Positions 10,741 to 50,743 of a DNA stretch of 64,000 nt are shown piece after piece. The DNA comes from Citrus sinensis (lineage: Eukaryota > Streptophyta > Magnoliopsida > Sapindales > Rutaceae), in assembly GCF_022201045.2 (NCBI RefSeq), contig NC_068558.1:37281501-37345500 (forward strand), written 5' to 3'. The notes beneath the pieces were generated by a model. That model was not told the origin of the DNA. It searched no databases and was given only the letters and a program-made list of their open reading frames with translations. Position 1 is the first letter of the stretch. Each line of letters opens with the position of its first letter. Both the position numbers and the translations under genes were made by a program.

Positions 10741-11224
10741 TATTTTAAGAATTTTTTTAGCTAGCAACTAATTATCTCATGTGAGAAATGGATTGAGCCA
10801 GACTTAAGTGACAAGAATTCAATTCTGACTGTTGGGTTAATTTTTTGCTTAATTAGTGTTGAATCAAAGGTTGTTAGATTAAAAAAATAAAAAATTTAAA
10901 AAAAATCAAAATCATTGATTCAACATTGAATCTTGATCTCAACATGCAACGTAACATTTTTCTGTAAACCTTAACAAACAAGAATACTTATTAAAATAAA
11001 AGATCTTTTAGTAAACCTTCACAAAGAAGAGAACTCGTTAAAATAAAATAAAAGCATTACATGCGGTTAGGGGAATATAGTGAACCTTATCTCTCATCAC
11101 AAATATTGCAAAGAAAGAGAGACGAACTCTGAAGAAAAGGCAAATAGCGAACATGAAATACTTATTTGGGAATCCGTGACAATGTCATCCGTTAATTATA
11201 TTCATCGGCCTTTGGTACCGGGTT

Positions 11225-14108
<2,884 letters not shown>

Positions 14109-14125
14109 TCAGGTGCATGCATACA

Positions 14126-14137
14126 TATTTATAGGGA
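14126..14137 (-). promoter_or_regulatory. TATA box, TPS copy A
   Basis: On the - strand CCCTATAAATAT lies about 95 bases upstream of the ATG (14039). The same element and spacing occur at copy B (27921-27930). Confidence 0.6.
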
Positions 14138-14169
14138 GAGGAAAAGTACGTACTGTACGTGTTTACTAT

Positions 14170-17884: not shown

Positions 17885-20800
17885 TACAATGGTAACACAA
17901 CAGCATGCCACTTTCTTTCTAAGTATAACATTTCACCATTAATCTTACACGATACCGCTCCACTTTGTCATTACCATCACATTTGATCTTGTAAACCTAT
18001 TTGTTTATAATGGCTTTTCTTCCACGTAGTAGTGGTACGAGTTTCCATGTCCTATTCTTATGTAGAGCCTCAATTTCTTCTTGCATTGCTGGCATCCACA
18101 AAGCGACATCCGAGCTGTTTAAAGCTTTATAGAAAGCTGATGGCTCTCCATCTTCTGTTAGAAGACAGTATGCAACAATAATCTTTGTGATATAATCCAA
18201 GTGCCATACAGATGATTGTCTCTCACTAGTTTATCGACGATCATCTAAAGCCTCAAACTCGATTGGTACTTGTTATTCATCCTCTGGTGTTACTTCAGAA
18301 GAATCTGAATCTTCATTTTTCAAATTATTTTCAATATATACCGATACAATCTCTGAATTTTCTTTTACAGTGCTATCATCTCCATCTTTTATTTGTAGTT
18401 GATATTCTACAAATATAATATCTCTGCTAATGACAATCTTGTGACCAGTGGGATCCCACAGACAATACTCTTTTACTCTATTAGCATATCCTAAGAATAT
18501 ACACCTTCTAGAATTAGGATCAAGTTTTGTTCTTTCTTGGGCATTGTACATTACGTACACAAGACATCCAAATGCATGTAAATGAGAGTAATCAACTAGC
18601 TTTCCAATCTATATCTTTATTGGAGTCTTCAAACCAATTGTTGTGAATGGTGACCGATTTGCCATGTAACAGACAGTTTTGGCTGCTTCTGCCCATAATG
18701 AGTTGGGTAGACTAGCAGTCTTCAATATAACTCTTATTCTTTCCCTAAGAGTCGTGTTCATTTACTTTGCCCCTTCATTTTGTTGAGTAGTGTATGCTAC
18801 AGTAAATTATCTTTGGATACCTTCTTGCTTACAGTATGAAAAAACCTCACCATCTGTATATTCTCCACCATTATTTGTCCTCAAGCACTTGATCTTTTTC
18901 CCAGATTCAAGTTCAATATGTGCTTTGAATTCTTTAAACACTAGAAACACATTTGACTATTTTTTTATTTAATACGTCCAACATCTCTTAAAATAATCAT
19001 GAATGAAAGTCACTATATACTTTGCACCTTCCATGGATATGTTTGGTGATTCTCAAACATCATAATAAACTAAGTCTAGAATGCATTTACTTTTGGCAAC
19101 AAATATGCTGAATTTCAATCTATGCTACTTACATATAACACAATGCTCGTAAAATGGTAAGTTCACCGATTTAAGCCTAGGAAGTAACTTTCGCTCAAAG
19201 AGAATCTTCAAACCTTATTATAACATGTGGCTGAGTTTAAGGGGTCAAATCATCATTGATTCTTCTCTATTGGATGCGACACATGCATTAGCTTTCTGCA
19301 GTGTTTCCCCTTTAAGCATGAATAGATTAGCACCAATATTTTCTGCCTTCATCAATACAAGCGCAACTTTAACTATCTTCATAATCCATTTTCAACATGA
19401 GTTTTGCACCCAAGACTATCTATTTGTTATAAAGACAATAGATCTTCAGACCTTTGACATGTCGTACTTCCTCAATTGTGCGAATCGTAGTATCAAATAT
19501 TTTTATTTTGATAGTACCAATACTAGTGAACTCTAAGGCATGATCATCTCCTATGTATACAAATTTTCTTAAGATAGGTTCATATGTATAGAACCATTCT
19601 CTCTGAGATGTCATATGTCGGGTAGCTTCTAAGACTATAAGTTAGATGTCAAATAACCATTCTCTGCCTTCTAAAATAGTTATTGTTTTGTTGTAGAGAA
19701 TTTCGTCATCATTTGAGGTACTTGTTACACACCTCTGAGCATTTGATGAGTCAAGATCTTTACTCTATTCTTTTCCCTTTATTCCAACACTCTTTCTTAA
19801 TGTGGGCTTTCTTGCCACAATTATAACATTTGACATTCTTCTTATTTTTTTAATTTTTCTCTACATGGTTGTGACTCTCGTTGGAGCCACATTCCGTTGA
19901 TCTCTCTCTCGTCATTGATAGTGCTTTTGCTTGTTTGTCTTATTTTTTTCGCTTCATCTCCTCATTTAATGTAGAGGCTACAACATCATAAAAAATTAGA
20001 TTGTCTGCTTGGTTATTGTTCATTAGATTGATGATGAGTTGATCATACGAATCTGGCAAACTTTGAAACAAAAGCTCTACGCGTTCATTTTCCTTTATCT
20101 AATAACCCAATGTTGTGAGTTGTGTCAAGATATTGATATCATCAGTCACCGATATATATTCTACCATTCAAAGAGTATAGAGTCTTCTCTTTAAGAAGAT
20201 TTTGTTGTGCAGTGACTTGACCTTGTACAATATTGTGAGAGTATCTCATATTTCTTTAACTGTCTTTTTCTCTGCCACATTGGATAACACCTTGTCTGTA
20301 AATGCTAAGTGTAGATTGGCATTTGCATTGCCATCTATCTCGTTCCACTTGACATCATCAACCATCTTCATGGGCTTTTCTATGATTGCTGCTAAGCAAT
20401 TATTTTTCTCAATACAGCCTTCATTTTCATTTTCCATGATAAGAAATTATTATGTTGAACTTCTCAATTTCGTATTTTGCCGCCATCATTTTTCACGACG
20501 AACTACCTTTGCTAGGATCGGCTTTCACCGTTTCATGTGAATAGTAACCGTATACGTGAATAGTATATTTTTACGTGAACAATACTCCAACTTCAAAAAA
20601 TACAACTAATAACTCTAATACCATTGTTGGGAAATTGATTGGGTGAAGTAGGGCCAGAGCTAAAAGAAAATTGGAAGAAAATAAAGAACAAGCATAAAGA
20701 GGACACTAGAAAATTATGTAGTTCGGCTTTTAGACTATATTCACAGGTAAAGACAGAAGGATAAAATTTCACTAGTGAAATGATGATTATAAGTATTGTA

Positions 20801-24521: not shown

Positions 24522-24992
24522 ATCTTATATTGTTTTAGCTAGCAATTGATTATCTTGTGGGAACTGGAATGAGCCTGACTTGATGAGGATTCAGTTCTGA
24601 CCATTGAGTTAATTTTTTACTTAGTATTAAATCAAAAGTTATTAGGTAAAATTAAAAAAAATAAAAAATAAATCCTAATCATTGATTCAACACTGAATCC
24701 TATCAACCATGACAAACAAGTGAACTTATTAAAATAAAAGATTTTGCAGTAAATCTTCAAAAACAAGAGAACTCATTAAAATAAAAGGAGAGCGTTACAT
24801 GCAGGTAAGGGAATGCAGTAAACCTCCCCCTGCGTCACAATTATTGCAAAGAAAGAGACACAAACTCTGAAAAAAACCAAATAGCGACCATGAAATGCCG
24901 AGCGCCTCACACCAGCTGAAACGATATAATACTTATTTGGAAATCCGCAACAAGTCATCCATTTATTAAATTCGTCGGCCTTTGGTACCAGG

Positions 24993-27902
<2,910 letters not shown>

Positions 27903-27920
27903 TCAGGTGTATGCATACAG

Positions 27921-27930
27921 ATTTATAGGG
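27921..27930 (-). promoter_or_regulatory. TATA box, TPS copy B
   Basis: CCCTATAAAT on the - strand, about 90 bases upstream of the ATG and conserved with copy A. Confidence 0.6.
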
Positions 27931-28165
27931 AGAGGAAAAGTACGTACTGTTTGTGTTTACTGTTAACACCATCTTTCCTTGAGGAAACTATAACCTGCTA
28001 GCTCTAACGTGTTCAAATTTTGCACGCTAAAGTTGGTAATCCATCGATTCCCATAATTGTCAAAATCTTCGCTCTGAAATGTCTTTCAACTTTATTCATA
28101 TACGGACAGAGTAATGGAGCCGTTGATTGTCTTGCATGCTAATTTGCTTTGCTTTGTCCAGATTT

Positions 28166-31004
28166 CACTTGATGGCAGAGTCATGTTCTAAACGTTCAAA
28201 AATTTATTGCTCATGATGTTAGCGGATTTCCTGAATTTGAATTCAGTTAGATATCTTCTTCTTTTTCCTTTCTTATAACAAATTATGCGGAAGCGTACCT
28301 GAATTCATACAAAAAACCTTAATAGATCACATATAAGCCTAAAATTGGATTAAGAATCCAACAATGTCAGATTAAAAATAATAATAATCTTCCACTTGTG
28401 CTATATGTATAACCTTATAATTATACTTTACAAAAACTGTATGAGTTTAACATTATTGTCATTACTAAATTGTATTTATAATCAATCCGGTCCATATATC
28501 ATTGATTATTTCAATAAATCCCTCATTTAATTAAAACAAGATCATATGCTTATCTAATCGTTCACCTAGTGACAAATACACTGATGTGATTAGTGGTTGA
28601 AAAACTAAAAATAATAAAAGAAAACATCTAAATATGCATGAAGACAATTAAAACAAATCCGAGTAGATAATGTATGTAGGTTGTGTCGTAAAATCAATTT
28701 ATTCATTTCTTTTGTTTGTATTTTTTAATTTTATTGATTTTATTTCTTGCAATAACTTAGACAGCTTCAGAATTACTTATAATAATAGTAATTGTATTCA
28801 TTTGATTCCCACATACTGATCTGCTATGTAACTCATTAATTAAGATGAACTTGTAATAATACTTCAGTTTTTCTGTTAACAAACTCGTGGCATTTACATA
28901 AAATAATAATATTTTGCTTCCAATTGTAAGCTCACCTCTAAACAACTTCCTATTCATGATTAGGAGATTGTCAAACTTTTTCCTCTATTGAAATCATTAT
29001 ATACCAATTATCTCCAACTATTTTCATAATACTGGATAATTTCCATGGCACTATAATTTTACAGTATTACCCTTATTTTTAAATATATTTTTATTTATAT
29101 TAATTATAAATTATATAAATTATATAAATTGAAATTAAAATAAAAAGATTTAATTACCGAAATAAGAAATATAAGTTTCGAAGTGAATAAAAAATTAACA
29201 GTAAGAAATATTTTCTTATAATAAATATTATTTTATATTTTCAAAATGATTTATTTATCTCTCTTTTTCCTTAAAATTTTTTATGTTATGAATATTTTTA
29301 AATATTATGAAAATAATAAAAAAGTAAGTGATATATAAAAATTTTAATAAGTAAAAACTGAAAATCTCTCCTTACAATATTGATATGTTGTCTTATACAG
29401 CTTGTATATTTGTTTTGTAAATATGGTAATAAAAGAAAAATGAGTTTATTGGTTCGTACAGAAGGTGATATGTATCGAGTCATTTACCTATTAATTGAAA
29501 AGTTTTGATGTGATTGGTATTGGGTGCGTTTGGGATTGAGGTTGGGCAGCTGTAGCTTAAAAGCTACATCACTAAAGTGTTTGGTAAACACTAACTGCTG
29601 TAGCTTTTAAGCTATATTGATATGATTTTTCACTTATATAATACAAAATCCATTATATCTTTAATAATTTTATCAAAATTATTATTTAAAATTTATATTT
29701 ACTATATATTATTAACTTTTGTTTCATAATTACAGCTTTTTTTTTCACAGCAGCTGTAGCTTAAAAGCTACAGCACCTCAATCCCAAACGCATCCATTAT
29801 TACCTTGAGTTTTTAATTATTATTAAATTATTTGAGCATGTGATTTTACATGCATTTTAGTCACGTTATCAGCAATATATATAATCATTCTCAAGCGCCT
29901 GCATCTTCAATTTTTTTAACGCTGACAAGTTGTTAAGTCATATGATTTAATACAATTATCTTTTAATGTATTATAAAATCAAACAGTTTAATGATTTTAA
30001 AGTCTGACTCTATTAAATTTCGTGGCCTAAAAGTGTGTCTGTATAAAAAATAAAATAAAATACTAGAGAAGGACTGCATGTGTGTGTGTGCACGCAAAAA
30101 GATACCCTTATTTTTTTTATACAGATTCGCTATTAAATCATGCAGCTTAATATAATTAATTTTTAATACATTTTAAAATTGTGCAGTTTCATAACATTAA
30201 AAATTGACTTTATTAAACCTTACTGATTAACAATGTGTCTATATGAAAAAAAAAAAAAAGAGGGCACCCGCACTAGAGAAATATTGTGTGTGTATTGTGT
30301 TAATTACCTGTCTTTTGTTTGCATGATGCTTAATTTATTTTCTGTATGCTTTTAATTTGACCATTTTCAAGAGCTAGTTGAGATTGAATTTTCATAATCA
30401 AATAAACCCTCTTTCCATTCGACAGAAAATAATATTGTTTACTTATTTTACAGAACAAAAATAAAATGTAATTTTGTTTCTTAAAAATATGAATACGTCC
30501 CATTCAATAAGATTAATTGAGAGGAGTAGAATCTTCTCCTTATTTGAGTTGTCCTTTTTTTATAAATCTTGCACTACATATATTTTAGTTTAGTGCTAGT
30601 ATATGATTAGAGTTTAACTAACTTTATTTTTTAATTTATTTACCGTCAACCACATTAATAAATTTTGTTCGAAAAAAGATTAGATCATAAGAGGATCTTG
30701 ATTCTAATTAAAGGCCCTGAACCAGTTAAGTTTCAATAAAATTTTTAATTTATAACTTCCCCACTGTCAAAGTCTTTGTATTATTTGATCAAAATCAAAT
30801 CCAATTTCTCTCCATTTTTTTTTAACTTCTACTGTACTCGCTTCTTCACAATTTTCAATAGATATCAAAACTTCCATAAAAGATCTCATCCCAGCGGCCG
30901 TGAAATAATCAATATTTATCTGGACGTCATCAATTGGACGGCGGTCGGGTGGGGGAATGGAAAGTTCATGCATGAAGCTATTATTGCCACACCCCATGTT
31001 TTCG
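28166..31004. other. Insertion splitting the second duplication unit
   Basis: This ~2.8-kb stretch has no counterpart in copy A, where the flanking sequences are nearly contiguous (about 14590-14670). It contains a MITE (29522-29795) and a 76-codon open frame on the - strand (30767-30997, ending WREIGFDFDQIIQRL) of no recognised family. Its ends were not resolved, so the element type is unknown; a retrotransposon remnant is possible. Confidence 0.5.
29522..29795. mobile_element. 274-bp MITE with GCGTTTGGGATTGAGG termini
   Basis: The left end GGGTGCGTTTGGGATTGAGG and the reverse complement of the right end GGATGCGTTTGGGATTGAGG form near-perfect 20-bp inverted repeats. ATT flanks both sides (29519-29521 and 29796-29798) as a candidate 3-bp target duplication. 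The subterminal AGCTGTAGCTTAAAAGCTAC motif is also inverted between the two ends. Non-coding. Confidence 0.8.
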
Positions 31005-31329: not shown

Positions 31330-31338
31330 AATTTTCTT
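31330..31338. repeat. 9-bp target site duplication (left)
   Basis: AATTTTCTT directly abuts the GGGAAATTT terminus; the identical 9-mer follows the right end at 38389-38397. The unfilled site in copy A reads AATGTTCTT (15217-15225). Confidence 0.9.
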
Positions 31339-31754
31339 GGGAAATTTACACTAATAACTATAAATATTTTGGTTTTTTTCATCTTAACCTCCCAAACAAA
31401 TTTCTATCAACATTAGTCATAAAAGACCCTTTGAGTCCAAAATACCCCTCTCCCTCATCTCACCCTTTCACGCATCTCTCCCAAACCAAACAAAAACCCA
31501 TCATCGGTGGCAACATCAGCCCTCGTCGGTGGTGGCTCCATCTCTCATCGGCGTCCGATCTACCATCTACAGCCTTCAAAAAAACCTAGGTTAGCCATTT
31601 AACTTATTTTCATTAATTTAAAATAAATTTTTAGATTAATAATGGTTGTAGTTTGAGAATAATGGTGGTGGTTGTGGTGTTTGTGATGATTGTTATTGTT
31701 TTGGGAGTATATTGATTTGGGAGTATGTTGAATTGGAAAATGACTTGGGGATTT

Positions 31755-31776
31755 GGGGGGGGGGGGGGGGGGGGGG
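31755..31776. repeat. 22-base G run followed by GC-rich tract
   Basis: An uninterrupted G run is followed by CAGCGCGCGCGCGGCCCGC. It is sharply unlike the AT-rich surroundings and lies inside the MULE left arm. Its length may be unreliable in an assembly. Confidence 0.8.
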
Positions 31777-31917
31777 CAGCGCGCGCGCGGCCCGCTGCCG
31801 CACCAGTTTTGGTGTGACAGGCTCACCAGTTAATTACAGTGGTTTTTTTTTTTTACAAGTCAATTTTTTTTTTTTGCTGTAAATGTAATGTAATAATTTT
31901 ATAAATATTACAGATAC

Positions 31918-34900
31918 ATGGCGAAATCAGAATCACCAGATATCGAAGTAGGCAAGATGTATTTTGGTTATGCCGATCACTTTCCTGGTCGAATTTCGAG
32001 CATGTGTAAGTTATCTTCGGTCGTAAAAGTTATCGAGGAAAAATTAACAAAGCGGCAGTTGAATGTGTTCAAGAAGGATATATTTGGGCATTTCTTAGAG
32101 TGTCGAAGTTTTCCATTTAGTGGGGTAATTTTGCACAATCTTTTACTGAGACAAGTGGCACATGAAGAAGATAGCCGTAAGGATCAGTTATGGTTTCAAA
32201 TTGGTGAGCATTTGATTCGTTTGTCAATTGTAGAATGGTGGCTGGTTATTGAACTTTCATATGGTGTTGATACCGAACTATTAGATGACAAAAAAGTGGA
32301 TAGGCTACGGAAAACGTATTTTGTGGTGTGCATCGCAAGATCAACGTTAAGGAATTTGATGCATTATTTATGGAGTTGAAATTCGAGGAAATTGACGATA
32401 TGGACGCATTAAAGATTGCGCTCTTTTATTTTGCGGACAGAGTACTAAATGCAAGAAAACATCACTGTCAAATCAATTTCGATTGGCTTAACAAAGTTGA
32501 TGATATAAAGTACTTCTAAAACAGTCCATGGGGTCTTGTGTCGTGGGAAATGATATACGATAGTCTTGATGATGCACTGTTCGAGAAATACGAGAAATTT
32601 AAGACGACTCGGTTGAAAAACCCAAATCATAACATTGAAAAGTACAATCTTTACGGTTTTACGTCCGGGGTTCAGGTGCGTTGTTTTTTTGTTTATTAAT
32701 AAGTTTTATAGTATTAAATATTTGATAGATGTGTTAATAGGTTTTTCACTTTGGTTGTTGTAGGCTTGGATTTACGAAGCGATCGGAGGTTTGCCGTCAA
32801 CATGGGTCGTGAAAACGAAGAACAAGATTCCCCGCATCGTGCAATGGAAGCCCATGGCGTCTTCGAGAATCAACTTTGCTAAGGTTTATTTGTTCTTCAA
32901 CGACGAATCTTATCTTATAAGTAATATGTATTAGTTATTTTTTTAACTTTACTAAATTAAGTTATGTATACTTACTTAAAATTTTGAATTGAATTTATGA
33001 CAGGGGGACGTTTTACAAACCCTTGAGCCAAATTCAAAGGAGAGTAGCGGAAAATATTGGCTCACTGTGAATGATTACATGCCAAGCATTCCAGACTGGG
33101 TTCATAAGGTCAGTTATAATCTAAGTACTATAAATTATATTTAATCGAAATTTTTGACTTTTCATTTATTAATTTTAAATGATACTTGATACAACACCAA
33201 CCCTCAATCAATGCGATGCTGTCGGTTTCAAGGCAATCAGACGAGCATGACGACATACCAAACCCAACACCAGAGCAGCGTCATGACACTTCTGAGGATG
33301 AGGTGGCTGTTGATGACCACCTGGAGCAGACACATGCCGACTCTGATGACGCACATGATTCTGAGGTTATAAATAATATACGATATTCTTCTTTTATTAA
33401 TCATTATTGTTTTACTGTTATTCTAAAGATTTACTTATTTTCTTTTGTAATAGTCGAGGACAAAACAGTTTAATGATTACGTGCGACGACGGCTGGATAA
33501 GATTGATCGTAACGTGTATGAATTGAAGTCGGAATTAAAAGATTTTAAAGAAATCGTGGTTGGCTTTATCGACACCTTTTCTACACGTCCAAATAAGGAT
33601 TCTCCCACCGGACGCTCGTATGCGGTGAGCATAATTAAATTTAATAATTATGTTCGTTTAGCTTTTAATTTAATAGTTGTTTAATATGTTCATCTTGGTG
33701 AATGGATAGGCCCCGGATGACTATGGAGTGTATACTGACGTGGGCAATCAAAATTTGTCTACGCCCACGTCATTGTATAGTTTCTACGGGGATGTTAGTG
33801 GGGAGAGCGTGCAGGTGTTCTCTGAGGTGCCTCCGGGCGTTAGTAAGTTCGGCCGCGCGTACATACCGTCGTATGTTTATAACAGTCCTTACATGATTCT
33901 TCCACTCAGGCGAGGAAAGAACGTCCGGCCTATACCTCCACCCCAAATCATGGACCATGCCCAAGACATGAATACGAGTGTAGATATAAATCCACTGAGA
34001 GGATTGGAGGATTCTAGTCTGTTTGCTGAGTTTGATCGATGGTTCGCTGGTGATATGATAGTGGTTCGGAGAGTCCAGCACCCGTGGTCATTCTTTCAAA
34101 TACTTTTGGGTTTAACTTCGATGGGATGGCTATGCGATGAGGTAAGTATATTTTCGAAGTTATTTGAGTGTTGTGGATTTGTGTACAAATTTTATCTTTT
34201 AAATCGTAATGTTTCTGTTTCTCTACAGCATATTCACGAATATCTCCGCCTGATTAGCGAGAAACAACGGCAGTATCCGAATGCCTTAGTTCAACGTGTC
34301 ACACTTACTGACACATTTTTTTGGGTAACGTGCCGACAAAACTTAAAACTACTATTTATGTTTTTTTTAACTTTTGCCTTTAAGTTTTGTTAATTTTTGC
34401 ATTTCTTGGTTATCCATGTACTAGGTGTTCTTGAATCAGTTATGGAACAATGAGGATTGTCTGGTCGATTCATTAGTATTCGACGACCGCTTGAATAGTT
34501 ATCTTTGTGGGCGACAGCACACAATGTCCAAATCAATTACGGATGTCGATATAGTAAGTATTTTATTGCATTTCACATACTCCATAATGAAAATATCCAA
34601 GTTGTCGCTTTTTCTTGGTTGTATTTCAATTTCATATATAACGAACATGTTTTTCAATTATTATATACAGTTACTCATCCCTGTGAACTTGGACGGCGCG
34701 CATTGGGTAGTAGCATGAGTTGACTTTCGGAAAAATAAAGTTTGGATTTATGACTCATTACTCACATTTCGCGACGACAAAAGGTACAAGTTGAAATTCA
34801 AGCCACTTGAAGTTATATTCCCTCGATGGTTGGAATATGTTGGCTTCTACATCTGACCTGAGTTGCGGAGTGCAAACTCCTGGAAAGTTATCGCAGTTAA

Positions 34901-35034
34901 GAGCGCGCCACAACAAGAGCCTGGAACTGGCGATTGCGGTGTTCGGGCTTAGATTGGAGTTTAACGCTAGTCATGTCGAGTACTTTAGAAAAAAGATTGC
35001 GGTTAGCATATTTAATGACGATATTGTATTGTAA
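31918..35034 (+). pseudogene. Transposon-borne Ulp1/C48 cysteine protease with DUF1985-like N terminus
   Basis: Decayed multi-exon gene. The first exon (from ATG 31918) encodes a DUF1985-like region typical of plant transposon ULP proteins; its frame shifts near 32320 and continues as the frame at 32328. Later exons follow after plausible introns (for example 34142-34229, GTAAGT...CTACAG). The C-terminal part contains the C48 protease triad: His in LDGAHWVVA (near 34700), Asp in VWIYDSL (near 34752), and Gln/Cys in the QEPGTGDCGVF block (near 34930). Stops interrupt it: TAA near 32518, TGA right after HWVVA (near 34718), and TGA in the EYVGFYI block near 34859. Such proteins resemble SUMO-deconjugating proteases; their role in transposition is not established. 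As it stands the gene is non-functional. Confidence 0.8.
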
Positions 35035-35248
35035 ACTGTTTAGTTATTTGAATCCATGAAACTTGAATTTTTATTTTAATTTGCGCACTTAAGTTTATAT
35101 AATTTTAATGCTCACATTTTAATATTTAAAATAAAATAAAGTTTTATGACATATAAGTGTACAATACACAAAAAACAATAACAATTTTAACTAACGAAAC
35201 ATAAAAAATAATAACAGTTTTAACCAACGAATCATTGAAATAATACAA

Positions 35249-37883
35249 CTAACTTCGAGTCGACGCAATGAGGTTCTTACATCGCTTACGATTATGGCCC
35301 AGTTCATGACACCGCTCGCATCTTATAGTCCGCCGGTCAACATCCTCGCCAGCTGAGGGTATTCTGAGCTCTTTACGACGGTCACATGATGGTGCCTCAA
35401 CTGGTGGGTATACTTGCATCTCCTGAATTTCATCTGGAACTTCCCAATCAGCCACATCACCAACTGGCTCCACTGGTTGTGCATAAGCCATCGCCAACGA
35501 TTCTGTAGTGTAAAAGTTCGAGCAAAGGTTAATAAAATCCACCTGGTGTGTTAGACACGCCGTAATTACATGAGCACATACAGGCTGATCAAGCTGAAAT
35601 ACTCTGCAAGAGCAAGTTTTCTTTCGCAAGTCAACCAAACCTTCCTTAAGCCCACCACCTATAACTTGAAATCGATGCGGAGACACCGGCGGCCGAACTA
35701 TCATTCTTTCAGCTATAGTTCTCCTCTTAGTGACTATTTCATCCGCCCATGTTGTTAGCCGAGTACTCATTGATTCAGCCATAATTTTTCTATCATAAAA
35801 CCATTACTGCAACGTTTTCCTAAAGTGATCAACAAGATGAGTAACAGGAAATTTTCGCAGTTCCCTCATGAAAGAATTAACACTCTCCGCGATATTGGTG
35901 GTAAGTATGCTGTACCTCCTACCTTCAAACTGAGACCTTGCTCAATTACACATACCGACATTATTTTCTAAGTAGTCAGCCGCACCCGAGTGGATCATCC
36001 ACAACCCTTCAAGTTGTCTCTTAAATTCCTCGTGACCATATGCTTTTGCTGCATTAATAAACGCAGGCTCAAATTGATCCCGAAGAGCTTTTGGCATTCT
36101 AAACTGTGACTTAATGTTACCTTTCACATGGTAAAAACAAACGCCGTGAGTTGCATTGTGAAATACTTTAAAAACAGTTCTCTTTATGGCAGTGCATCGA
36201 TCAGATATAATTACCAACTCAGGTCTATTGCCAATCACTCCGTGTAACTTCATCATAAACCATTCCCAAGCATCATTGTTTTCTGAATCCATGATCCCAA
36301 TGGCTAACGGATACAATTGATTGTTACCATCAAGACATGTTGCCAAACATGTTTCCACGATATAGCCCCTTGAGATGAGTACCATCTACAGCAATGACAG
36401 GCCGAATGTACTGCATAAAACCCTTGATGGAATATCCGAGTGCTAAAAAATAGTACAAGAAATTACCATCTTCATCCTACTCGAAGTGAGTGACTATACC
36501 CTCATTCGCTGTACTTAGTACGTGAGAGTATTTAGAGTGCAAGTTGTATGACTCTGCAGGGTTGCCTCAAACTATTTCAAGACCAACTTCTCTCGCTCGA
36601 TATGCCTGCTGGTATGTTAACTGAACACCGTATTCTTGTTGCATATCTACTCTTATGTCATTCGGAGTATAAATTCTCTTGTCTTGAATATATTTATCTT
36701 CGATAATATGACCGATAACCCGGCTCCTGACTTAATGACGTCCATCAACCAATACCTCATTATGACAAGTGTGTACATTATCAATTCTCCGCACCACCCA
36801 AAGAACATTTTGCTCGTTCGAACATCTAGTTGCTCGAATACACCATTTACATGATTCTGAACAACAGTGAGCCTCGAAACTTGTCGTAGTAGACCGTGCA
36901 ATCTTGAAATCAAACTTATCCTGAAAGGCAACCTTGCGTAGTTGTAATATAAACTCATTCTTCTCAGCAAATAGCTTACCCACACTAATATCATCTGAGT
37001 CACAATTGCTAACAAAGCTTGGAGCAACCATGTTCGAAGGCAAAGTTGGAGCAAGACTTATGAGGGGGTCAATTCTCCTTCTCGATCGAACCATAGAATG
37101 AATAAGTCTATTGCCTTTGTTATTCACAGGAGTATTGTTTTCACACTCATCCTCATGCTGAAACGACGGAACATTCGAAGGACCGGCTCCTTCATCATCA
37201 CCATCATTATTGAAATGAGTGCCCCTCATATTATTAGAAGGTTCTGCACAAATATTATCCCCCTCTGTCTCATCATGAAAATCATCATTGTCCCGAAAAT
37301 CATTGTTGTGATACGGAGAATACGGTTGCTCCAACGACGTCGTTATTGGAAATACCGTTGCTCCAACATCCTGTAACGTAACGCTGTTATCATCAATGTT
37401 GTCATAATTGTCGTGGATTGGAGAGTAATATTGCTGCAGCGATATTGTCCTTAGCAACACCTCTTCTTCATTATTGGGGCCAGACATATTTGCTCTAAAC
37501 GAAGTTTCTGTATCGACATGTGGATCAATACCTTCGCTCGGAACTCAAGGTGATGTGGTCACAAATATAGAAATGCATCCAAAATTAGCTACGTCGGATG
37601 CCATATGTAACACAACCCTCACCATTTCATCATCAAATATATCCATGGGCAGTGCACATACACGATATAATGTGTTACTAGACCTCAAAGTTGTCTTCAT
37701 TGTGATATTATATTCATTAGGATTAATTTGTAACACATCGTATACTCTTGCCAATAACTGATCAAAAAGACAATTTTTCCCAACCGAAAAAGCTCTATTT
37801 TTACCATTGACATACTCCATACGCCCATTCTCTAATGTCTTCCACCAACCATCGTAACACAATTCAAGTACAACTGAATCCAT
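35249..37883 (-). pseudogene. MURA-type Mutator transposase with SWIM and CCHC fingers
   Basis: Read on the - strand from ATG 37883: an N-terminal PB1/MuDR-like part, an acidic linker, a DNA-binding region with two Cys (CCSESCKWCIRATRC near 36850), the MULE transposase core (near 36385-35945, with ISDRCTAIKRTVFKVFHNA), a SWIM zinc finger (CSCRVFQLDQPVCAHVI, near 35600), and a C-terminal zinc knuckle CERCHELGHNRKRC (near 35290). In-frame stops at 37545-37547 (TGA), 36732-36734 (TAA), 36568-36570 (TGA), 36477-36479 (TAG), 35942-35944 (TGA) and 35804-35806 (TAA) break the protein, but the frame is otherwise held. Domain order matches autonomous MULEs. It is transcribed toward the Ulp1 gene. Confidence 0.85.
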
Positions 37884-37978
37884 TAAGCCTGAAATTATAA
37901 AAAAATAAATAAATTATTTCAGCCCTATCAAATTAATAGTTAATTGCAATGAATTTGCCTTTTCTTGTGACAGGCTGA

Positions 37979-38004
37979 CTGTCGCACAAAACTTGGTGCG
38001 ACAG
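37979..38004. repeat. Perfect 9-bp inverted repeat near MULE right arm
   Basis: CTGTCGCAC (37979-37987) pairs with GTGCGACAG (37996-38004) across an 8-base loop. Related TTTTGGTGTGACAGGC motifs occur at about 31807 and 38023, in the same orientation at both ends of the element. Confidence 0.75.
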
Positions 38005-38388
38005 GGAGCCTATTGCTCCAAGTTTTGGTGTGACAGGCAACCTGTCGCTAGATTGACCCACGAAACCATCTGCAGTTCAGTCAAACTCACGAGCAAGTTC
38101 AAAAAATAACTCATACTACTATGTGATGCCGATTAGTGTTGGATCCGGATAAATTATGATCGGATTTCACTTTTTATCGTTGCTTTTTGCCGTTGCCGTT
38201 GGTTGATGATTCAAGAGTGGGAAGCTGCCTTTGGTTTGACGAAAGGGGAGAAAGAAAGTTGCTTTTGGTTTGTAAAGAAGGGTAATTTGGGGAGAACAGC
38301 GTGTGTTTGATTAATGTTGATAGAAAAAAGTTGAGAGGATTAATTGTGAAAATAACAAAAGTTTTATGGTTATTTTTGTAAATTTCCC

Positions 38389-38397
38389 AATTTTCTT
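38389..38397. repeat. 9-bp target site duplication (right)
   Basis: AATTTTCTT, identical to 31330-31338, follows immediately after the terminal AAATTTCCC. Confidence 0.9.
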
Positions 38398-39880
38398 CAA
38401 GAAGCATCTTTTCGATTGACTTTGTTCATGTCTGTGACAAATGTGAAAAAAAATTAATAAATGGACCTTCTAGGCTACGTGATATTGTAACTTACAATAG
38501 TTCAAGTGTCACGTTTATTAACCCAAAAATATTGGACAACTAAACTATGGTTGACTTGATTGATACAACTCTTAAATTGTTATAAGTTGCAACATTATGT
38601 AATTTATCTACCTCCTTAATAAATGTTATTATATTGGCCATTGGGAGGTTAAATGCACTAATGTAAATTCATTGGCCGATGCCCCCCCCCCCCCCCTTTC
38701 TCAAGTTTAATTTTTTTTTTTTTGAGGTAAATTTGTTTGAACACACTAAATTTAATTTTTTATTGTTTATTACTTAAAAGCCCATAAATCAAATTACTAT
38801 GATGAATAAAAAATATAATTAAATAAAATAATTTTACTCTTCGCACCATCTTTAACCCCGGTCCAAATGTTTCAATTTTGTATGCAAGTTTATAATATTT
38901 CCCTCTTCAATTCATTGTGGGATCATTTTTGCTCTAAGTAATTGGTTTATGACGTAGCTATTTGCCTATGATTTTAGGAACTGATTTATTATTTGTTCTT
39001 GAGTCTATGATTTTAGGGTTGGTTTATGATGAAACTACTTGTCAATGATTTATGAACTAGTCAAAATATAGTTCTATACACCGTAGAAAATGAATCATAT
39101 TTCAAACTAATTTACCGTTGATACGATACAGATTAATATCCGGACTTAATGTATAGACACATACACATATTGGGTTTAATTGGTTATTTTAAAATTATTT
39201 GAACTGGTTCCGTTTCCGGAAAAGGTGATTCACTACATTAAGATACTTTGTGTTAACTTTAGAGAAGAAAATAAACCTGAACATGGTGTTCAATCCATCT
39301 ATATACATTTGCAGCGGTTCCACGTGCTAACAAAAGTTCTTTATCAATATACGTTTTCAAAGAATTCACTTGAAATGCTTCATGATAATGATTACCAATT
39401 TATGATGATGATGATGATGATAATAACAAAAATAATTTAAATCCTCTACTAATGCTTTTTATTTTCTTTGAATAAATTAAAGGTTGTCAAAGTATGAACC
39501 AAAATCTTAATTCTATAACAAACGACAATGTCAGATAAGACACTAAGTGTCAGACGACTTGCAAGTTAGGTTTTGAATGACATGTCAGTGTCTTGCTTTG
39601 ATCACGCGTATGACATTTATCTCGTGTCATACGCATGCGGTAGCTAAGACGTGCGTTGCATGCGATTCGATTAAAACATTAGAAGCTTGAAACGACAGAG
39701 ACAGATGCCGCTAGCTCACTTAAGTAACTCACATGTTCAACACATGCGGAAGACTGTTATGAGCTGTTAAAATGAGCGAGAATTTTCTTTAATTAATCAC
39801 GCGAGTTTAAAAAATTAATTTGAAATTTTCTCATCCCATACCTTTAAAAAATCCAAGATTATCTATTTGAGGAAAAAAAT
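38398..39880. other. Continuation of copy C flank, no genes
   Basis: Non-coding and homologous to copy A up to about 39485; it includes a 15-base C run at 38682-38696. After 39485 no feature was recognised until the inverted-repeat element at 39882. Confidence 0.6.
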
Positions 39881-39881
39881 C

Positions 39882-40911
39882 TAAAATATATTTTATGTTC
39901 AATGTCATTAGATGACGTGGAACCATTAACTAATAATTTTTTGACATGTGTCAAAAACTTTTAAACCTAAAAATTAATTTATTAATAGTCAAATAGTTCC
40001 TTCTCTTGCTCTCCCTTTCCTCTTATTTCAAAAATTCCTGTTCCCTCTTCCAAATTCCAATAATAGAAAATCAAAAAATATTAATTTAGTTAAAATTATT
40101 AAATAATAAATTGGATAAAGTGCGTTTGAAAATCTCTCTCCAAGAAACATTATTCTCTCTCCAGCCCTCAATTTACTTATGCATTTTTACACACAAGGAT
40201 GAAGCAATGTCAAATGCAATCGAAATAGTGATTTCATAGACACATCAACGATTGTGTACATGGCATATTGCTAAAAATGCCACACAACAACTTGTTACTT
40301 ATTATGCAAGACCTGGGTTCAAGCAATATTACAACAAGTGCTTTTATGGGTGCAGTAATGCAATAGAATTTGAAGCTTCTTGGGTTGAGATGATTAAAAA
40401 ATTCAAATTAGCAGATCACTCATAGCTCAAAATTTTGTATTTTTCTAAAGAGAAGTGATGTTTGGCTTTTAGTTTGGATACATTTACTGCAAATATGAAG
40501 TCAACCTCGAGAAGTGAGAGTACAAATAATATTTTTCATCAAATTCCGGCAAAAACAACAGGGCTCATTATAGTTGTTCAGCATTATGACAATGAAGCAA
40601 ACGAGATGCGGTTAGAGGAGTTGCAAGATGACAACAAATTAAGGGCTGGAGCGAGATTTGCAAAGGCACTTTATTCAATTCATTATTTTTATAATTTCTA
40701 ATAAATTAATGTTTCTTTATTTTCTATTCTTAGAATTTGGAAGAGGAAAGATGAAATTTTAAAATCAGAGAAAGGAGAAAGAAGGTGGGGAATTATTTAA
40801 CTTTTAACAAGTTAATTTTTAGGTTTAAAATTATTGACACACGTTAAAAAATTATTAATTAATGGTTCCACGTCATCTAATGACATGAAGCATCAGATGT
40901 ATTCTAAAATT
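39882..40911. mobile_element. Short Mutator-type element with ~95-bp inverted repeats
   Basis: The left block (39882-39977) and the reverse complement of the right block (40812-40911) match closely. Both contain TGTCATTAGATGACGTGGA and then AACCTAAAAATTAA. The 1.03-kb element holds FAR1-like transposase remnants. Long inverted repeats plus this transposase fit the MULE superfamily. No clean target duplication was found, so the outer ends are approximate. Confidence 0.75.
40200..40701 (+). pseudogene. FHY3/FAR1-like transposase remnant
   Basis: Frames with stops encode the MULE/FAR1 signature THQRLCTWHIAKNA (near 40240), FYGCSNAIEFEASWVEMI (near 40335) and STSRSESTNNIFHQI (near 40505), as in FAR1-family proteins (HRLCxWHI, STxRSESxN). 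N-terminal DNA-binding and C-terminal SWIM regions are missing, consistent with an internally deleted, non-autonomous element. Confidence 0.75.
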
Positions 40912-43740
40912 TATCATATTGTATACAGCTGGTTAGCTGCCAATTATATCATTAGTCCAAGCTTTTTCACAAATATTGAGTCCTACACCAATCAGTAACA
41001 CAATTAAATTAGGGAAAATAGTCCAACTTAAAAACCAAAAAACAAGCGTGGATGAAAAGAGAGCTAAATTGAATTAGGGAAACAATTGAAAGTTGCTACT
41101 TAGAAAAAGCAATTGGGCATGAAAAAGAAAGCGTAGAGTCTGTTGACAATGGAAGGCACATACATATGTATAATTAATTTTGAGTAACAATAGACATTTC
41201 AATTTTTTTATCCCAAATGTGATCCCAAATGATATGTCATTAATTGAATGATTGGTAATTCTTAATAAGATTCAAAATGAATTAATTGTATTATCTCACC
41301 AACTAATTGATGAATATCGCATCATTTACGATAATTTTTTGGGACAAAAAATTGGATTGTATAGCACTACTCATTAATTTAACTAGTCTTTTTTTAAGAA
41401 AATCCATTATTAATTAAAGATAGAAAATGAATCAATAAGTCGAAATCAAGACGGAGACGATTTCATTTATCTGGCAAGTGAGATATAAAAGAGATTTTTT
41501 TCAATATATTTAGTGACAAATTTGTGATACCTTTGTTTTTTTCCCCCATTTTGTACAGTGCAAAACTCGAATTAATTTTTTAATTCCTTATTTACCTCGA
41601 AATTTGGGGATTTAATAACCATTTCACCAAATTATGAGAGAATGACTTTCATATTATTATTGTTTCTAATTTTTACCACTTAAGTCCTATTATTTTTTAA
41701 TTACACATTACATCACCGACATTATTATTTTAATGTTCAAATGTTATTGTTGAGGATAAACATAACTGTTAGACTAATAGTAAGATTATAGAGTTCGGAG
41801 GGCCATTGGATTATTAGAAACTTATACAAACATGTATACATGCATATATATAGAGTATTCTTTTAATAATAAGGTCCTTATTTTAAAAAAATGAAGATCA
41901 TACTAAAAGATAGGAAAATATAAAATTTGAATTTACTAAAAAAAAAGTCTTTTAATATTTTAAAATTTATGTTGTTTCTATTTTTTTAATTTTGTCCTTA
42001 TTTTAATAAAATATTAAATGAGCATTTCCTTATTAGAAAGTTTTTTCAGCTATAAAGAGTTAATTCCCATTTTATAAGAAAGTGCAAAGTTCACACCTTT
42101 TTATATGATTTCAATTAATTAATCATACTAAATAAAATTAATTATACTTTGTTTCAATTTTCTATTTTCTTTTTATTTATTTTTAAAATAAAATTAATTA
42201 TCATCCTAAATGTTAACTAAAATATATTAATTCATATCATCAAATCTTGACACTTTATTATTCTTTAATCCAAGGAATTAAAAGTGTGTTTAATAGTTGT
42301 CTCTTGAGCTTGCATGCATGCATGCATACATACATACATACACACACACACATACATACATACATATATATAATCTTGTTAAATTAATACTTTTAAATTG
42401 ATAACCTCCATTAAATAATAACTTTTTGGGTCCCAGCTTGAGGCCAACATGAAAAATTAATAATTCGATAAATTTATTAGATAATAAATTCTCAAAAAAT
42501 ATTATTCTTCTCTAGGACCCAATTAATATATAAATTAATAATTAACTAATTTGAGACTAAATACATATAATATGTCTATGATTTAGTTGTTGTATTGGTA
42601 TAATGCTTTACGCATGTCATTGGTCATTATTGCTTTCTTTACACCGTTCAGATGAGAAGTTTCTATTTGATTGTATGTGCTATATTAAGGGAAATAAGAG
42701 AGATTGACTTAATATATTGTCTCCAAAAAGTTTTCTCTAATGAGTTCCTAAATAGCATGATCCAACCATGCAATCCAACCAAATTAAGGATTATCAAGTG
42801 ACTGATTCACTCAACAAGATCAAATCAAAATTGTATCGTACAGCTTGACATAATCACTAAATCATCTACTTATACTAATTCTATGCTTTATGAAAGTTCA
42901 TATTATATACATGATATTATCTTTATAAATTAATAAACTATTAATTTATCATTAAATTAATAGTTATTAATTTATCAATATATTAATATTCACTAAATTA
43001 ATAGATTTTTCATAATCCCAAAACTATTAAATTATCGAGATTCTACTGCATTTGATCTTATAACATAATATATATATTTATTATAAGAAAAATATTTAAA
43101 AAATAACAAAAAGTACAAGAAAAATATGTTATTATTAATTTTTTATTTATACCGAAACTTATATTATTTATTTTTACGATTTTAATTTTTATATAAATTT
43201 TAATTTATATGATTTATTTAATTTATAAAAATATGAATAAAAAAATATTTAAAAATAAGAATAATATTTAAAATGATGGTGTTAGGGAGATTATTAGGCA
43301 TTATGAAAATAATAAAGAGACAAATTATTTGTTTTAATGTCAATAGAGGAAATTGACAAATGTGACAATCTTCTCTCTCTCTCTCTCTATATATATATAT
43401 AGCTTTTCTTCGTACAACTTGATGAGAAATACTAATATATCTATGGTGTGTTCAAATTTAATTTATTAATTTATTTCCTCTTTCTAGTTTCTAGATTTAA
43501 GACTCTGAAAGTTCATACGTTACACCCTCATATGGGTACGTATCATTCCATTTATCTGTGGAATTAAATACTATTTATCAAAGCATGATTCTAGCATGGA
43601 TATCTACGATAACATAATTAATAAGAATAGGTCATAAAAGAGTGTGCTTTATTATCAAAATAAATAAAAAGTTATAGATTAGGCTAATCATTTATTTCCA
43701 TTAAAACTATATTTTACATATGTATATGCTAGCTTTTGCA
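40912..43740. other. AT-rich spacer with microsatellites
   Basis: No gene recognised. Notable are a compound GCAT/ACAT/CA/TA microsatellite at 42313-42371 and a (CT)n(AT)n tract at 43371-43400. The right end presumably contains the PILS promoter and a 5'UTR intron ending at TTTCTTTCAG (43763). Confidence 0.55.
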
Positions 43741-46300: not shown

Positions 46301-47944
46301 TTCCTTGGATGGTTCTAGTTAATGACTTTTAATAAATTTTAATTATTTGATGGTACTCAATCTATGAAGTACAGTACTATTAAGAAATCATAGATAGACC
46401 TTAACTTTAAAGAATTAATTAAAAGCCAAATGAGTGATAAATATCTTGTCATCAAAGTTTACTTGAGGCAAAACTATATTGCTTCTAAAACAAGATAGAG
46501 TAGGGAGAAGTACTGGGGAAAATGATAGTGGCCAAATTCTAAAACAAATTGAATGATATAAACTTGTAAATATTACTCTTGACAATTTTATAAAGTATGA
46601 GAGTGATAGCAAGTTTTGTAAATACTGCATAATAATTTAATTTGTGAGCAACGTTAGTATGAAAGTAAAAAAACTAAAAAAATTTACTGAATTTTTGCTA
46701 GGCTATAGCCCAACTTTGTCCATTAATAGCTTCGCTGTTGGTTTGGGTTACCAGTTAGCTTTCCATAGTTGTTGGATTTAATTTATCAAAGACAATTATA
46801 ACTAAAATTCAAATAAATTTGATCAGTAACATAAGAATAGTTGAGAATATTTAAGTTGATTTTAATGCAAACAAATATGCAATATCAATGTTTTAGGTAT
46901 TTTCAAAAAAATTCAAGGACAAATTTATTAGCTGACTCGAACTCGGGCCAACGACTAAGGGAACATTTACCCATTTTCTTTCAAACTTTCAGTTCTAAAC
47001 CTAGATACCCAAGCTAGACCATCATGTATAGAGCTCATATAAAAGATTCTGTTAGATTTTTTTAATTGTAATTATCAATATTTTTGCTATTATTTTAAAA
47101 TGTGTTAGGCTATTAAAATTTTTGACTTAAAATTTTGATACAAATGTTGAGTCATTGATTTCAAGAAATATGGCGGTGGATGAATAATTATCATTAAATG
47201 CTACTTTAACTTTCAATATCCACCATTAGATTACTTGAAATCAATGGCCCAAGATTTTTGTCAAAATTTTAAGTTAAAAATTTAAATTAGAACAGTCCCA
47301 CTATTTAAGAATAATCACAAACCCATATTATACCCTTAAAGATGTTCTGACATATATATGCTCCAGAATTTTCAATGTAATAATATTAATATGTGCCTAT
47401 CAATAATTAATTATATCAATTTGTGGTACTCAGACAGAGTCTAGTTAATTGAATTTCATGGTTTGGTGTTACAGACTGGGGGATTTTATGTTTGGACATA
47501 CGTGTGTGCCATCATGGCAAGATTTGCAAATGGTATCATTAAGACGAACAGATGGTGATTCCACAATCAGCATATCATCTTCTGCAGAAACTTCATCACG
47601 AATACGCTCCGAGAGTTTCACCGAACCACTTCTACCCTGTTCGAAGGATTGCTCTAACTCTATTGAAATGCTTCGCACTGGATCTTTGGTAAGATACAAT
47701 GTAATATTAAAGCTAAAAATAGTTACATTAAATGCACAGATTGTTTGAAAATTTAATTTAATCATTAAAATAGAGTAATAATTTAGTGGGAGACAGTGCT
47801 CACATTATGACGAGCGACATTATCCGTTGCACGTCTAGTTAATTGCAGTTTTATTCACAGGGAGTCACATATTTGTGCTACTTGTTGAGCTGGTGCTCAT
47901 TGCTTCATTTTTTCTATACACACACAACCACAAAAACAATTACT

Positions 47945-48226
47945 GGGTTTAAATGAATATCTAATTTTATTATTTGGACAGGTTCTATTTCCGGGAAGGG
48001 TAAATTCACTACATTAAGATGTTTCTAGCGGAGATAAACCTGAAGATGGTGTTCAATCCAACCACTATTGCCGCGGTATACAAAAGTTCATTATCAATAT
48101 ATGTTTTCAAAGTATTCACATGAAATGTTTTATGATCGTAAATAACAACTTATTAAAAAGCAATAATAATACTATAATTTTTTAGATCTAGTATTAATGG
48201 TTTTTATTTTCTTTGAATAAAAAGGT
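47945..48226. repeat. Block shared with TPS flanks (copy D), inside PILS intron
   Basis: GATGGTGTTCAATCCA (48043) and TTCATTATCAATATATG (48088) match copy A (15870, 16830) and copy C (39285, 39340). Homology in all three ends at the same point, CTTTGAATAAA...AAGGTTGT, which here is the acceptor and first bases of a PILS exon. Confidence 0.7.
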
Positions 48227-48829
48227 TGTTGGGTTGATCATTAGGATAGTCCCTCCTATCCGAAAGGCAATGATTGGTGATAATGCTCTTCTTCGCTTGA
48301 TTGATAATTCTGCATCTTTGCTTGGGTATGATCACCCTCAATTACTACGACTCTGATGCTTAATTTTCCTCCACAGCTTTTCGTGATTTTGCCACTTATC
48401 CTTTCACAGACTATAGTTTTTCATAATACCCGACCCTGTCACTTATTGATGTCAAAACTTCAACCCAAGTATGTATGTATGTATGTATGGTTGTCTTACG
48501 GTCGCTGGAATGAGATTTCGTGTCGTCAGAAACCTAACAAGAGTATTATAAAAACTGTAAGGAGAAAGTGTTAATCTTCCTTAACATTTCCCTTTTGTAA
48601 ATGAAATCTGATTATATATGACAGAGAAGCAGCAATTCCGTCAATTATTCTGTTACTTGGGGCAAATCTTCGACGAGGTAAATTTAATATATATTTTTCA
48701 TTACATTGCCTTCTGAAAAAAGTCAATGTACACTTATTTGTAGATTCTTGTGATTCTTTTTGTGGCTGAAGGTTTAAAAGGATCAGGAGTAAGTCCATTA
48801 CTTGTGGTACGGATTCTGGCAGTGCGGTA

Positions 48830-48834: not shown

Positions 48835-50743
48835 TGTTGAAATGGGCACATGCATGTGTCATCTAAATTTCAAGAAAGCATGCAAATTTCAAAAGGCTAC
48901 CAAAAAAATGAAAAAGTTGGTAAATTTGTCAAATTTGTCAAATTTGTCAAATTGGCACCATTGACAATTTGCTTGGGTTAGGTGGAATAGTGCAAACTTC
49001 AAGTCTATAAATTGAAACTTCTTCATTCCATAACATCCCAAAAATTTGAGAGTTTAAGAGAAATTGCAAGTGAAGCAATTCTAGAGTTCTAAGAGTGTGA
49101 ACAATTAGAAAGAGTGTGTGTGAGTGCTTTTGGATGTATTTGGGTTTTGGAAAGTGAGGTTTTTATTATTCAAATATTGAACTCCAATAATTGTTAATTA
49201 TACAATTATTTTCTCTTGCTCCCATGAACGTAGACATGATTGCCGAACCACGTAATTCTTGTGTCCTTTATTTTTCTGTGATTGTTTTGTGCGTTTGATT
49301 CCGCATTCCGCGCACAACAAGTGATATCAGAGCTTTGACTTCATCTTTAATAGCTTCATCAAGATTTTTCAAATCAGCAAGTAACTTCTCAAATCTTGAG
49401 ACATCATGCATTGACACCCCATGTTTCATTCAAAAGTCATATACCTGGCTCATTGCATGAAGGCGATTTTCAGAACTTTTCAGCTGGTACTTCTCCTCCA
49501 ATGTACGCCACAAAGTCATTGCACACTCCTTATCTTTCACCAAGTATTTCACCTCCTTAGTTAAACAAGATCTGATTTGACCAGAGGCTTTCTCGTTCAT
49601 GCGATCCCAAGTTTCTTCATCACAATCTTTAATTTTTCAAAATAACATCGAGATCGATTTGAATAAGGGCATCCATAACTTCGCGCCTCCACATGCCGAA
49701 ATTGATTTTCCCATCAAACTTTTCAACATCGATATTTTGGCCGACTATAATAGGTGTTGAATAACAATTTGACAAATCTCGCCTTCCATCTGAAGTATTT
49801 TATGAAATAGTCTCGATAAATCCCTCCCTAATTCTGAAAGTTGTACATTCTACCATTTTCTCAACAAATTATTTCCACTTGAAAAACAGCCTCTATGATG
49901 TTAATTTCGCGTGAATAAATGCACCAAGAAAGTTTCTAGGAGAATAGAGGGGTCACAATAGTCTCACTTAAAACTCAAACTCCTTAAACTCTTATCATCT
50001 TGTTGATAAAACTTTCCTAAACATGCATAATTGCACACTATTTACAATAAATTGTCTCCCAAGTACAAATGATCATCTCCATCGTATTCGTAAATAGCAT
50101 TGTACATTAATAGTATCGTATATATGAACAGTACCGTATCTCCACAAATACGAACCGTCGGCTCTGAATCCTTATTGAAGGATTTCATTAGGGATGATGG
50201 TTCATTGGTAGTCGGCTCAGATTTGAACAAATTTTCGTCAAGGTAGAGAATTGTTGAAAAGCATTGGGCACATGCATGTTGGCATCCAAATTTCAAGAAA
50301 GCATGCAAATTTTCAGAAGGCTACCAAACAAATGAAGAAAAAATGAAAAGTTGGCAAATTTGTCAAATTTGCCAAATGGGCACCATTGACAATTTGCTTG
50401 GGGTAGGTGGAATAGTGCAAGCTTCAAGCCTATAAATTGAAGCCAGTTTTTCATTCCATAACATCGCAAAAATTTGAGAGCTTAAGAGAAATTACAAGTG
50501 AAGCAATTCTAGAGTTATGAGAGTGTGAACAATTGGAGAGTATGTATGAGAGTACTTTGGGTGTATTTAGATTTTGGGAAGTGAGGTTTTCATTACTCAA
50601 ATATTGTACTCCAATAATTGCTAATTATATAATTATTTTCTCTTGTTCCTGTAGACGTAGGCATAATTACCGAACGTAATTCTTGTATCCTTTATTTTTC
50701 TGTGATTATTTGATGCACTTGATTCCGCATTCCACGCACAACA
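48835..50743 (+). mobile_element. Non-autonomous copia-type LTR element in a PILS exon
   Basis: Left LTR 48835-49319 (485 bp) and right LTR 50252-50743 (492 bp) both start TGTTGAAA and end GCACAACA. A TATA motif (TCTATAAATTGAA) lies in each (about 49004 and 50428). The primer site AGTGATATCAGAGC follows the left LTR. The internal region is only 932 bp and has no intact gene. TACAC flanks both sides. Removing the element and one TACAC restores the PILS exon frame exactly (CGG TAT ACA C|TC ATC). The two LTRs differ at several sites, so the insertion is not very young. Confidence 0.9.
49345..49765 (-). pseudogene. Copia gag fragment, antisense within the LTR element
   Basis: On the - strand the internal region reads as copia Gag (UBN2 type): VEKFDGKINFGMWRREVMDA near 49725, EETWDRMNEKASGQIRSCL near 49600, MTLWRTLEEKYQLKSSENRL near 49500, and FEKLLADLKNLDEAIKDEV near 49360. 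Stops occur near 49640 and 49424. The orientation is opposite to the LTRs and primer site around it. Confidence 0.75.

Follow-up and report, generated by a model that had tools for sequence, protein, structure and literature searches.

A bounded insertion of 7 kb upstream of one of two tandem terpene synthase genes raises two questions: what the inserted sequence is, and whether it arrived before or after the duplication of the segment that holds it. In the window (the whole stretch of 64,000 nucleotides that was analysed), the segments are called A and B, and the insertion lies in B. We consider it highly probable (approximately 95%) that a full-length, dead, high-copy Mutator-like element (MULE) with terminal inverted repeats (TIRs) inserted upstream of copy B after the duplication.

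Boundaries and setting of the insertion

The element spans 31339-38388 and is flanked by two identical copies of AATTTTCTT. With the boundary fixed, nine bases would match perfectly by chance with a probability of approximately 4e-6 (4 to the power -9). The features of the site are as follows.

10751-14172 and 24529-27966, minus strand: tandem terpene synthase genes
15217-15225, plus strand: empty target site AATGTTCTT, paralogous segment A
31330-31338: left 9-bp target site duplication copy, AATTTTCTT
31339-38388: whole Mutator-like element, 7050 bp
31339-31451, plus strand: 5-prime TIR, approximately 113 bp, matching the other end at 89 of 117 columns
38276-38388, minus strand: 3-prime TIR
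38389-38397: right 9-bp target site duplication copy, AATTTTCTT

Both ends of the window copy start with GGGAAATTTACA. The ends, the duplication, and the Pfam transposase domains agree, and the original prediction of a Mutator-like element with exact ends and a perfect 9-bp target duplication therefore holds. The predicted inverted repeats are also present, but the length given for them, approximately 80 bp, was too short, as the alignment runs for approximately 113 bp; an ungapped repeat finder returned 83 nt at 75%. An LTR or CACTA element was set aside on the basis of the domains and the 9-bp duplication. The observation of a bounded insertion with a target duplication is real, and as an insertion the event is ordinary.

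The copy A gene on the minus strand contains the Pfam domains Terpene_synth and Terpene_synth_C, and the copy B gene, also on the minus strand, was identified by its 85% DNA identity to A over 3.5 kb. In B, the insertion lies approximately 3.4 kb from the upstream edge of the aligned gene block; in A, the empty site is approximately 1 kb past the block. The insertion is a clean event with a relative date on the upstream side of only one terpene synthase paralogue, copy B, whose regulation it may have altered.

Other repeats were observed in the window. Approximately 2.8 kb of segment B (28159-30999) has no blastn counterpart in A, which has 72 bp there. Inverted sequences like GCGTTTGGGATTGAGGT...CACCTCAATCCCAAACGC in the vicinity of 29527-29795 suggest, by eye, a small non-autonomous element. 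Downstream of the MULE, nested inverted repeats at 39876-40912 (80% arms of 104 and 95 nt) are foldback-like. A direct repeat of approximately 490 bp (86% identical) occupies 48835-49319 and 50252-50743, and a retrotransposon fragment (Pfam SH3_retrovirus, 1e-27) is present on the minus strand at 18273-18608.

Genes and relatives of the element

The window copy retains a plus-strand DUF1985-Ulp1 gene convergent on a minus-strand transposase gene, and both are broken.

31897-32379, plus strand: DUF1985 exon piece, weak Pfam match (E 0.072, below cutoff)
33710-34393, plus strand: open stretch like a middle exon of the DUF1985-Ulp1 gene of the related copy L089 (by eye)
34707-34949, plus strand: Ulp1 (Peptidase_C48) remnant with two TGA codons and 90% identity to L089 across 82 of 120 residues
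35249-35803, minus strand: transposase C-terminal piece, SWIM zinc finger (Pfam, E 9e-8)
35942-36385, minus strand: transposase catalytic piece, MULE domain (Pfam, E 2e-15)
36732-37544, minus strand: transposase piece with DBD_Tnp_Mut (Pfam, E 1e-7)
37545-37913, minus strand: N-terminal open piece, parted by one stop from the same-frame piece 36732-37544

The three Pfam matches of the transposase pieces are above the cutoffs. The transposase is recognised as four open stretches in two frames; therefore, it is broken. The stretch 37545-37913 matched no Pfam family at cutoff, and by eye it is similar to the N-terminal part of the 897-aa frame in L089. On the plus strand, the Pfam matches of 33710-34393 and 34425-34718 were weak, below cutoff, and to unrelated families, and the open stretch 36653-37057, which overlaps the transposase in another frame, matched no Pfam family. 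The element had been described as complete; this is correct for its ends, which are intact, but not for its genes. The DUF1985-Ulp1 gene and the motif arrays described below were missed in that account of its contents.

The relatives are better preserved. L089 is 7297 bp long with a perfect duplication, AATTTGTTC, and an uninterrupted 897-codon frame encodes its transposase, in which DBD_Tnp_Mut, MULE, and SWIM all exceed the curated cutoffs. The exons of its second gene match DUF1985 (2e-19) and Peptidase_C48 (1e-14) in Pfam; DUF1985 is also matched in another copy, L090 (2e-13). The Ulp1 part of L089 is broken by one stop, and the Ulp1 region of other copies is a 214-codon open frame without a stop. 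These predicted exons are read here as one gene. Relatives with open frames encode a MuDR-type transposase and, tail to tail with it, a predicted DUF1985-Ulp1 protein.

The family is dispersed across the genome (299.7 Mb, 11 contigs). The original prediction implied other copies with the same ends, and the end pattern gave 183 matches, compared with 2 for the reversed control, so that the claim was not refuted. A piece of the transposase gave at least 150 matches (150 of 682 candidates were scored). Thirty transposase loci were fetched, the window's own included, and a convergent Ulp1 match lies within the 3.4-kb locus in 29 of them; one has no match. The 9-bp duplication is perfect in 13 of the 15 elements read at both ends, which comprise the window copy, ten copies whose ends were paired by eye, L089, and three short copies from the end-pattern matches. 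The boundaries of L042 and L048 were placed two bases outside the aligned start, and L050 was left out of this count because its fetched 3-prime stretch contains no element end. The two imperfect duplications, in L043/L090 and L066, seem to have three and two extra bases, respectively. The TIRs are identical at 116 of 162 columns in L089 and 87 of 118 in L090. With its transposase domains, 9-bp duplication, and TIRs, the window copy belongs to the Mutator (MULE) superfamily as a TIR-MULE.

Order of the insertion and the duplication

Copy A at 15217 reads AATGTTCTT followed by CAAGAAGCATC, unbroken, with one mismatch to the duplication AATTTTCTT. The empty site in the tandem-duplicated copy had been located correctly, although its sequence was quoted with one T too many. 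The joined flanks of B align contiguously to A across 15217-15225, as predicted, with a single copy of the target and a junction free of extra bases or a footprint. The nearest other difference between A and the joined flanks is a 5-bp indel, placed approximately 5 bases upstream of the target. Pieces of the flanks are 77%, 75%, and 78% identical between A and B by blastn (E 9e-27, 2e-15, and 8e-59). When the genome was searched with the right flank, copy A was the sole match to reach the junction, aligning from the first base. A third segment (47930-48229) was rejected as an outgroup, as its match starts 769 bases into the right flank and falls short of the insertion site.

The flanks of A and B differ by a K2P distance of 0.239 over 1033 sites, or approximately 0.12 per lineage. 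The terminal branch of the window element is 0.055 substitutions per site in a tree of 28 copies (5-prime kilobase) and 0.028 over the whole element (nearest copy L090, outgroup L089); closer unsampled copies could only shorten these values. Because 0.028-0.055 is below 0.12, the insertion is placed after the duplication, which agrees with the order originally proposed from the empty site. The order rests on one empty site, from the right-flank search, plus divergence. The terpene synthase block is less diverged between A and B (K2P 0.101, approximately 0.05 per lineage), which is near the branch estimate of 0.055. In 150-column windows, its divergence falls to 2.7%, versus approximately 20% for the flanks; constraint or gene conversion may have slowed divergence there. 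A fairer clock is the flank in which the site lies; by this clock the insertion post-dates the duplication, an order that is supported but not proved. Dating by the divergence between the two inverted repeats was dropped, since the ends differ in the relatives too.

The alternative that the element predated the duplication and was later excised precisely from copy A has in its favour that the right-flank search found just one empty site, and that the terpene synthase blocks of A and B are only approximately 10% diverged. However, A has one target copy with no footprint at the junction, and the branch of the element (0.028-0.055) is shorter than half the A/B flank divergence (0.12), so we regard excision as very unlikely. 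Still more improbable, to the point of being negligible, is an artefact of assembly or alignment: nothing was found in its support, and against it the exact ends are common to dispersed copies, most of which have their own 9-bp duplication. In the preferred reading, insertion after duplication, the MULE would have transposed upstream of terpene synthase copy B, duplicating the 9-bp AATTTTCTT, and A would keep the empty site. A transposase of the element's own family probably moved the window copy.

Motif arrays and comparison with known systems

L089 has one tandem array upstream of the DUF1985 exon and another upstream of the transposase. Both contain a palindrome formed from GTGCGACAG; the units are different in additional arrays of L089, at 2139-2225 and 4106-4214. 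L089 contains 9 exact copies of GTGCGACAG, L090 has 4, and the window copy has 2. If one mismatch is tolerated, these numbers rise to 16, 7, and 6, respectively; the corresponding averages from 20 base shuffles are 0.8, 0.65, and 0.9. All but one of the six matches in the window copy are in two hubs.

31795-31820: decayed GTGCGACAG pair in the 5-prime noncoding hub, on opposite strands and with one mismatch per copy
37979-38036: motif hub upstream of the transposase, with two exact copies of GTGCGACAG and a third with one mismatch

Elsewhere in the window, 56,970 bases contain no exact GTGCGACAG and three copies with one mismatch. Exact GTGCGACAG occurs within the first kilobase in 27 of 30 five-prime loci, and the window copy is among the three that lack it. 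Among the same 30, only the outside flank of L049 contains the exact motif, where another family end is close by. In the 28 loci that remain without the two whose match starts away from the element end, 49 of 52 exact motifs sit 250-749 bp from the 5-prime end. The paired GTGCGACAG palindrome was found 366 times in the genome and not once for the reversed control. Those listed on C1 and C2 group by hand into 25 clusters: 17 are near other family marks, by reading of the lists, and the remaining 8, when fetched, all match element ends or arrays, L106 least well.

In a subfamily, B, Ulp1 is approximately 68% identical to that of L089, and the transposase-side hub contains predominantly GTGAGACAG, with 19, 16, and 19 exact copies at three loci versus 1 GTGCGACAG in each. 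The paired GTGAGACAG palindrome occurs 88 times in the genome versus 0 for the control. Among the Ulp1 matches listed (150 of 277 candidates scored), 12 of the 21 listed GTGAGACAG clusters lie within 6 kb of a match, 67-70% identical, and the other nine do not; for GTGCGACAG, 7 of the 25 clusters do so (two by the same match), with 80-92% identity. Because the copies are related by descent, the change from GTGCGACAG to GTGAGACAG is best taken to be a single switch within one lineage. In a third pair, L098 and L099, GTGCGACAG is kept and the neighbours differ.

In L109, the one subfamily-B element read, the sequence preceding the DUF1985 exon contains GTGCGACAG five times and GTGAGACAG not at all; part of this sequence may fall outside the element, as the 5-prime end was not reached. 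A switch of the motif throughout subfamily B was thus ruled out, and this retention counts against a simple story of co-evolution. L089 and L109 are 60.7% identical in the DUF1985 exon, 68.3% in Ulp1, and 77.4% in the whole transposase, the catalytic part of which reaches 92.3%. As a side observation, positions 1-828 of L109, upstream of the DUF1985 exon, form a very GC-rich array with an observed/expected CpG of 1.51; this ratio is 0.45 in its transposase-side hub, and GTGAGACAG has no CpG.

Subterminal repeats are common in DNA transposons, and the palindromic motifs may be repeats of this kind, structural or bound by the transposase, with no anti-silencing role. We give this reading slightly less than an even chance. 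It accommodates the finding that subfamily B differs in the transposase hub and not upstream of the Ulp1 gene, which is hard to explain by a single binding protein. Against it, the arrays lie upstream of both genes, with tandem expansion and subfamily differences, as for the VANC21 targets in the cited part of PMC5735166, which also gives DUF1985 as a domain of VANC proteins. A more tentative possibility is that this TIR-MULE has its own anti-silencing system, in which the DUF1985-Ulp1 protein would be a VANC/KIU-like factor that recognises GTGCGACAG arrays upstream of both genes. In subfamily B, the two genes could be under separate control, because the transposase side has GTGAGACAG while the DUF1985-Ulp1 side keeps GTGCGACAG.

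The single parts of this system are already known. Ulp1 in TIR-MULEs is known from melon and grapevine, according to the cited passages of PMC2528002. In grapevine, as described there, Mutator families comprise MULEs both with and without TIRs, in which a ULP sequence follows the transposase in the same or the opposite orientation. The same passages describe the KAONASHI MULE (KI-MULE) of Arabidopsis, which is similarly high in copy number and has Ulp1 reverse to mudrA; however, it is described as non-TIR, and the Citrus family, which has TIRs, is not filed as KI-MULE. Ulp1 is reverse to the transposase in the Citrus family as well (29 of 30 loci convergent, one without a match). The Ulp1-carrying MULEs of melon are reportedly the CUMULE family. 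These elements (van Leeuwen et al. 2007, as cited in PMC2528002 and PMC13317346) likewise have an Ulp1 domain inside a MULE; the comparison is by description, and the cited passages make no mention of motif arrays. TIRs, DUF1985-Ulp1, and motif arrays in combination were not found in the literature passages searched, a scope that excludes Sasaki et al. 2022, and a literature search for a motif string gave one paper, on Drosophila.

The motif arrays resemble the VANC target arrays of Arabidopsis VANDALs, and binding of the DUF1985-Ulp1 protein to them is suggested by this analogy. In the cited passages, VANC proteins have DUF1985 (PMC5735166) and localise on noncoding regions rich in short-motif tandem repeats (PMC10398659), and within their target arrays units are gained, lost, and changed in concert (PMC5735166). 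VANC genes that carry Ulp1 are said to act likewise (2026 review PMC13317346, citing Sasaki et al. 2022). The Citrus family similarly has a DUF1985 protein beside a MULE transposase (2e-19 in L089 and 2e-13 in L090, but 0.072 in the window copy) and noncoding tandem arrays of short motifs, which vary from one subfamily to another (compare the passages of PMC5735166 and PMC10398659). However, VANDALs are non-TIR in the cited part of PMC13317346 and have the motif YAGTATTAC, whereas the Citrus element has TIRs and the palindromic GTGCGACAG; it is therefore not filed as a VANDAL. The arrays, with their putative function, are the part worth following. If the anti-silencing role is true, this family would test whether VANC-like anti-silencing reaches beyond the non-TIR VANDALs, and what role the Ulp1 domain plays.
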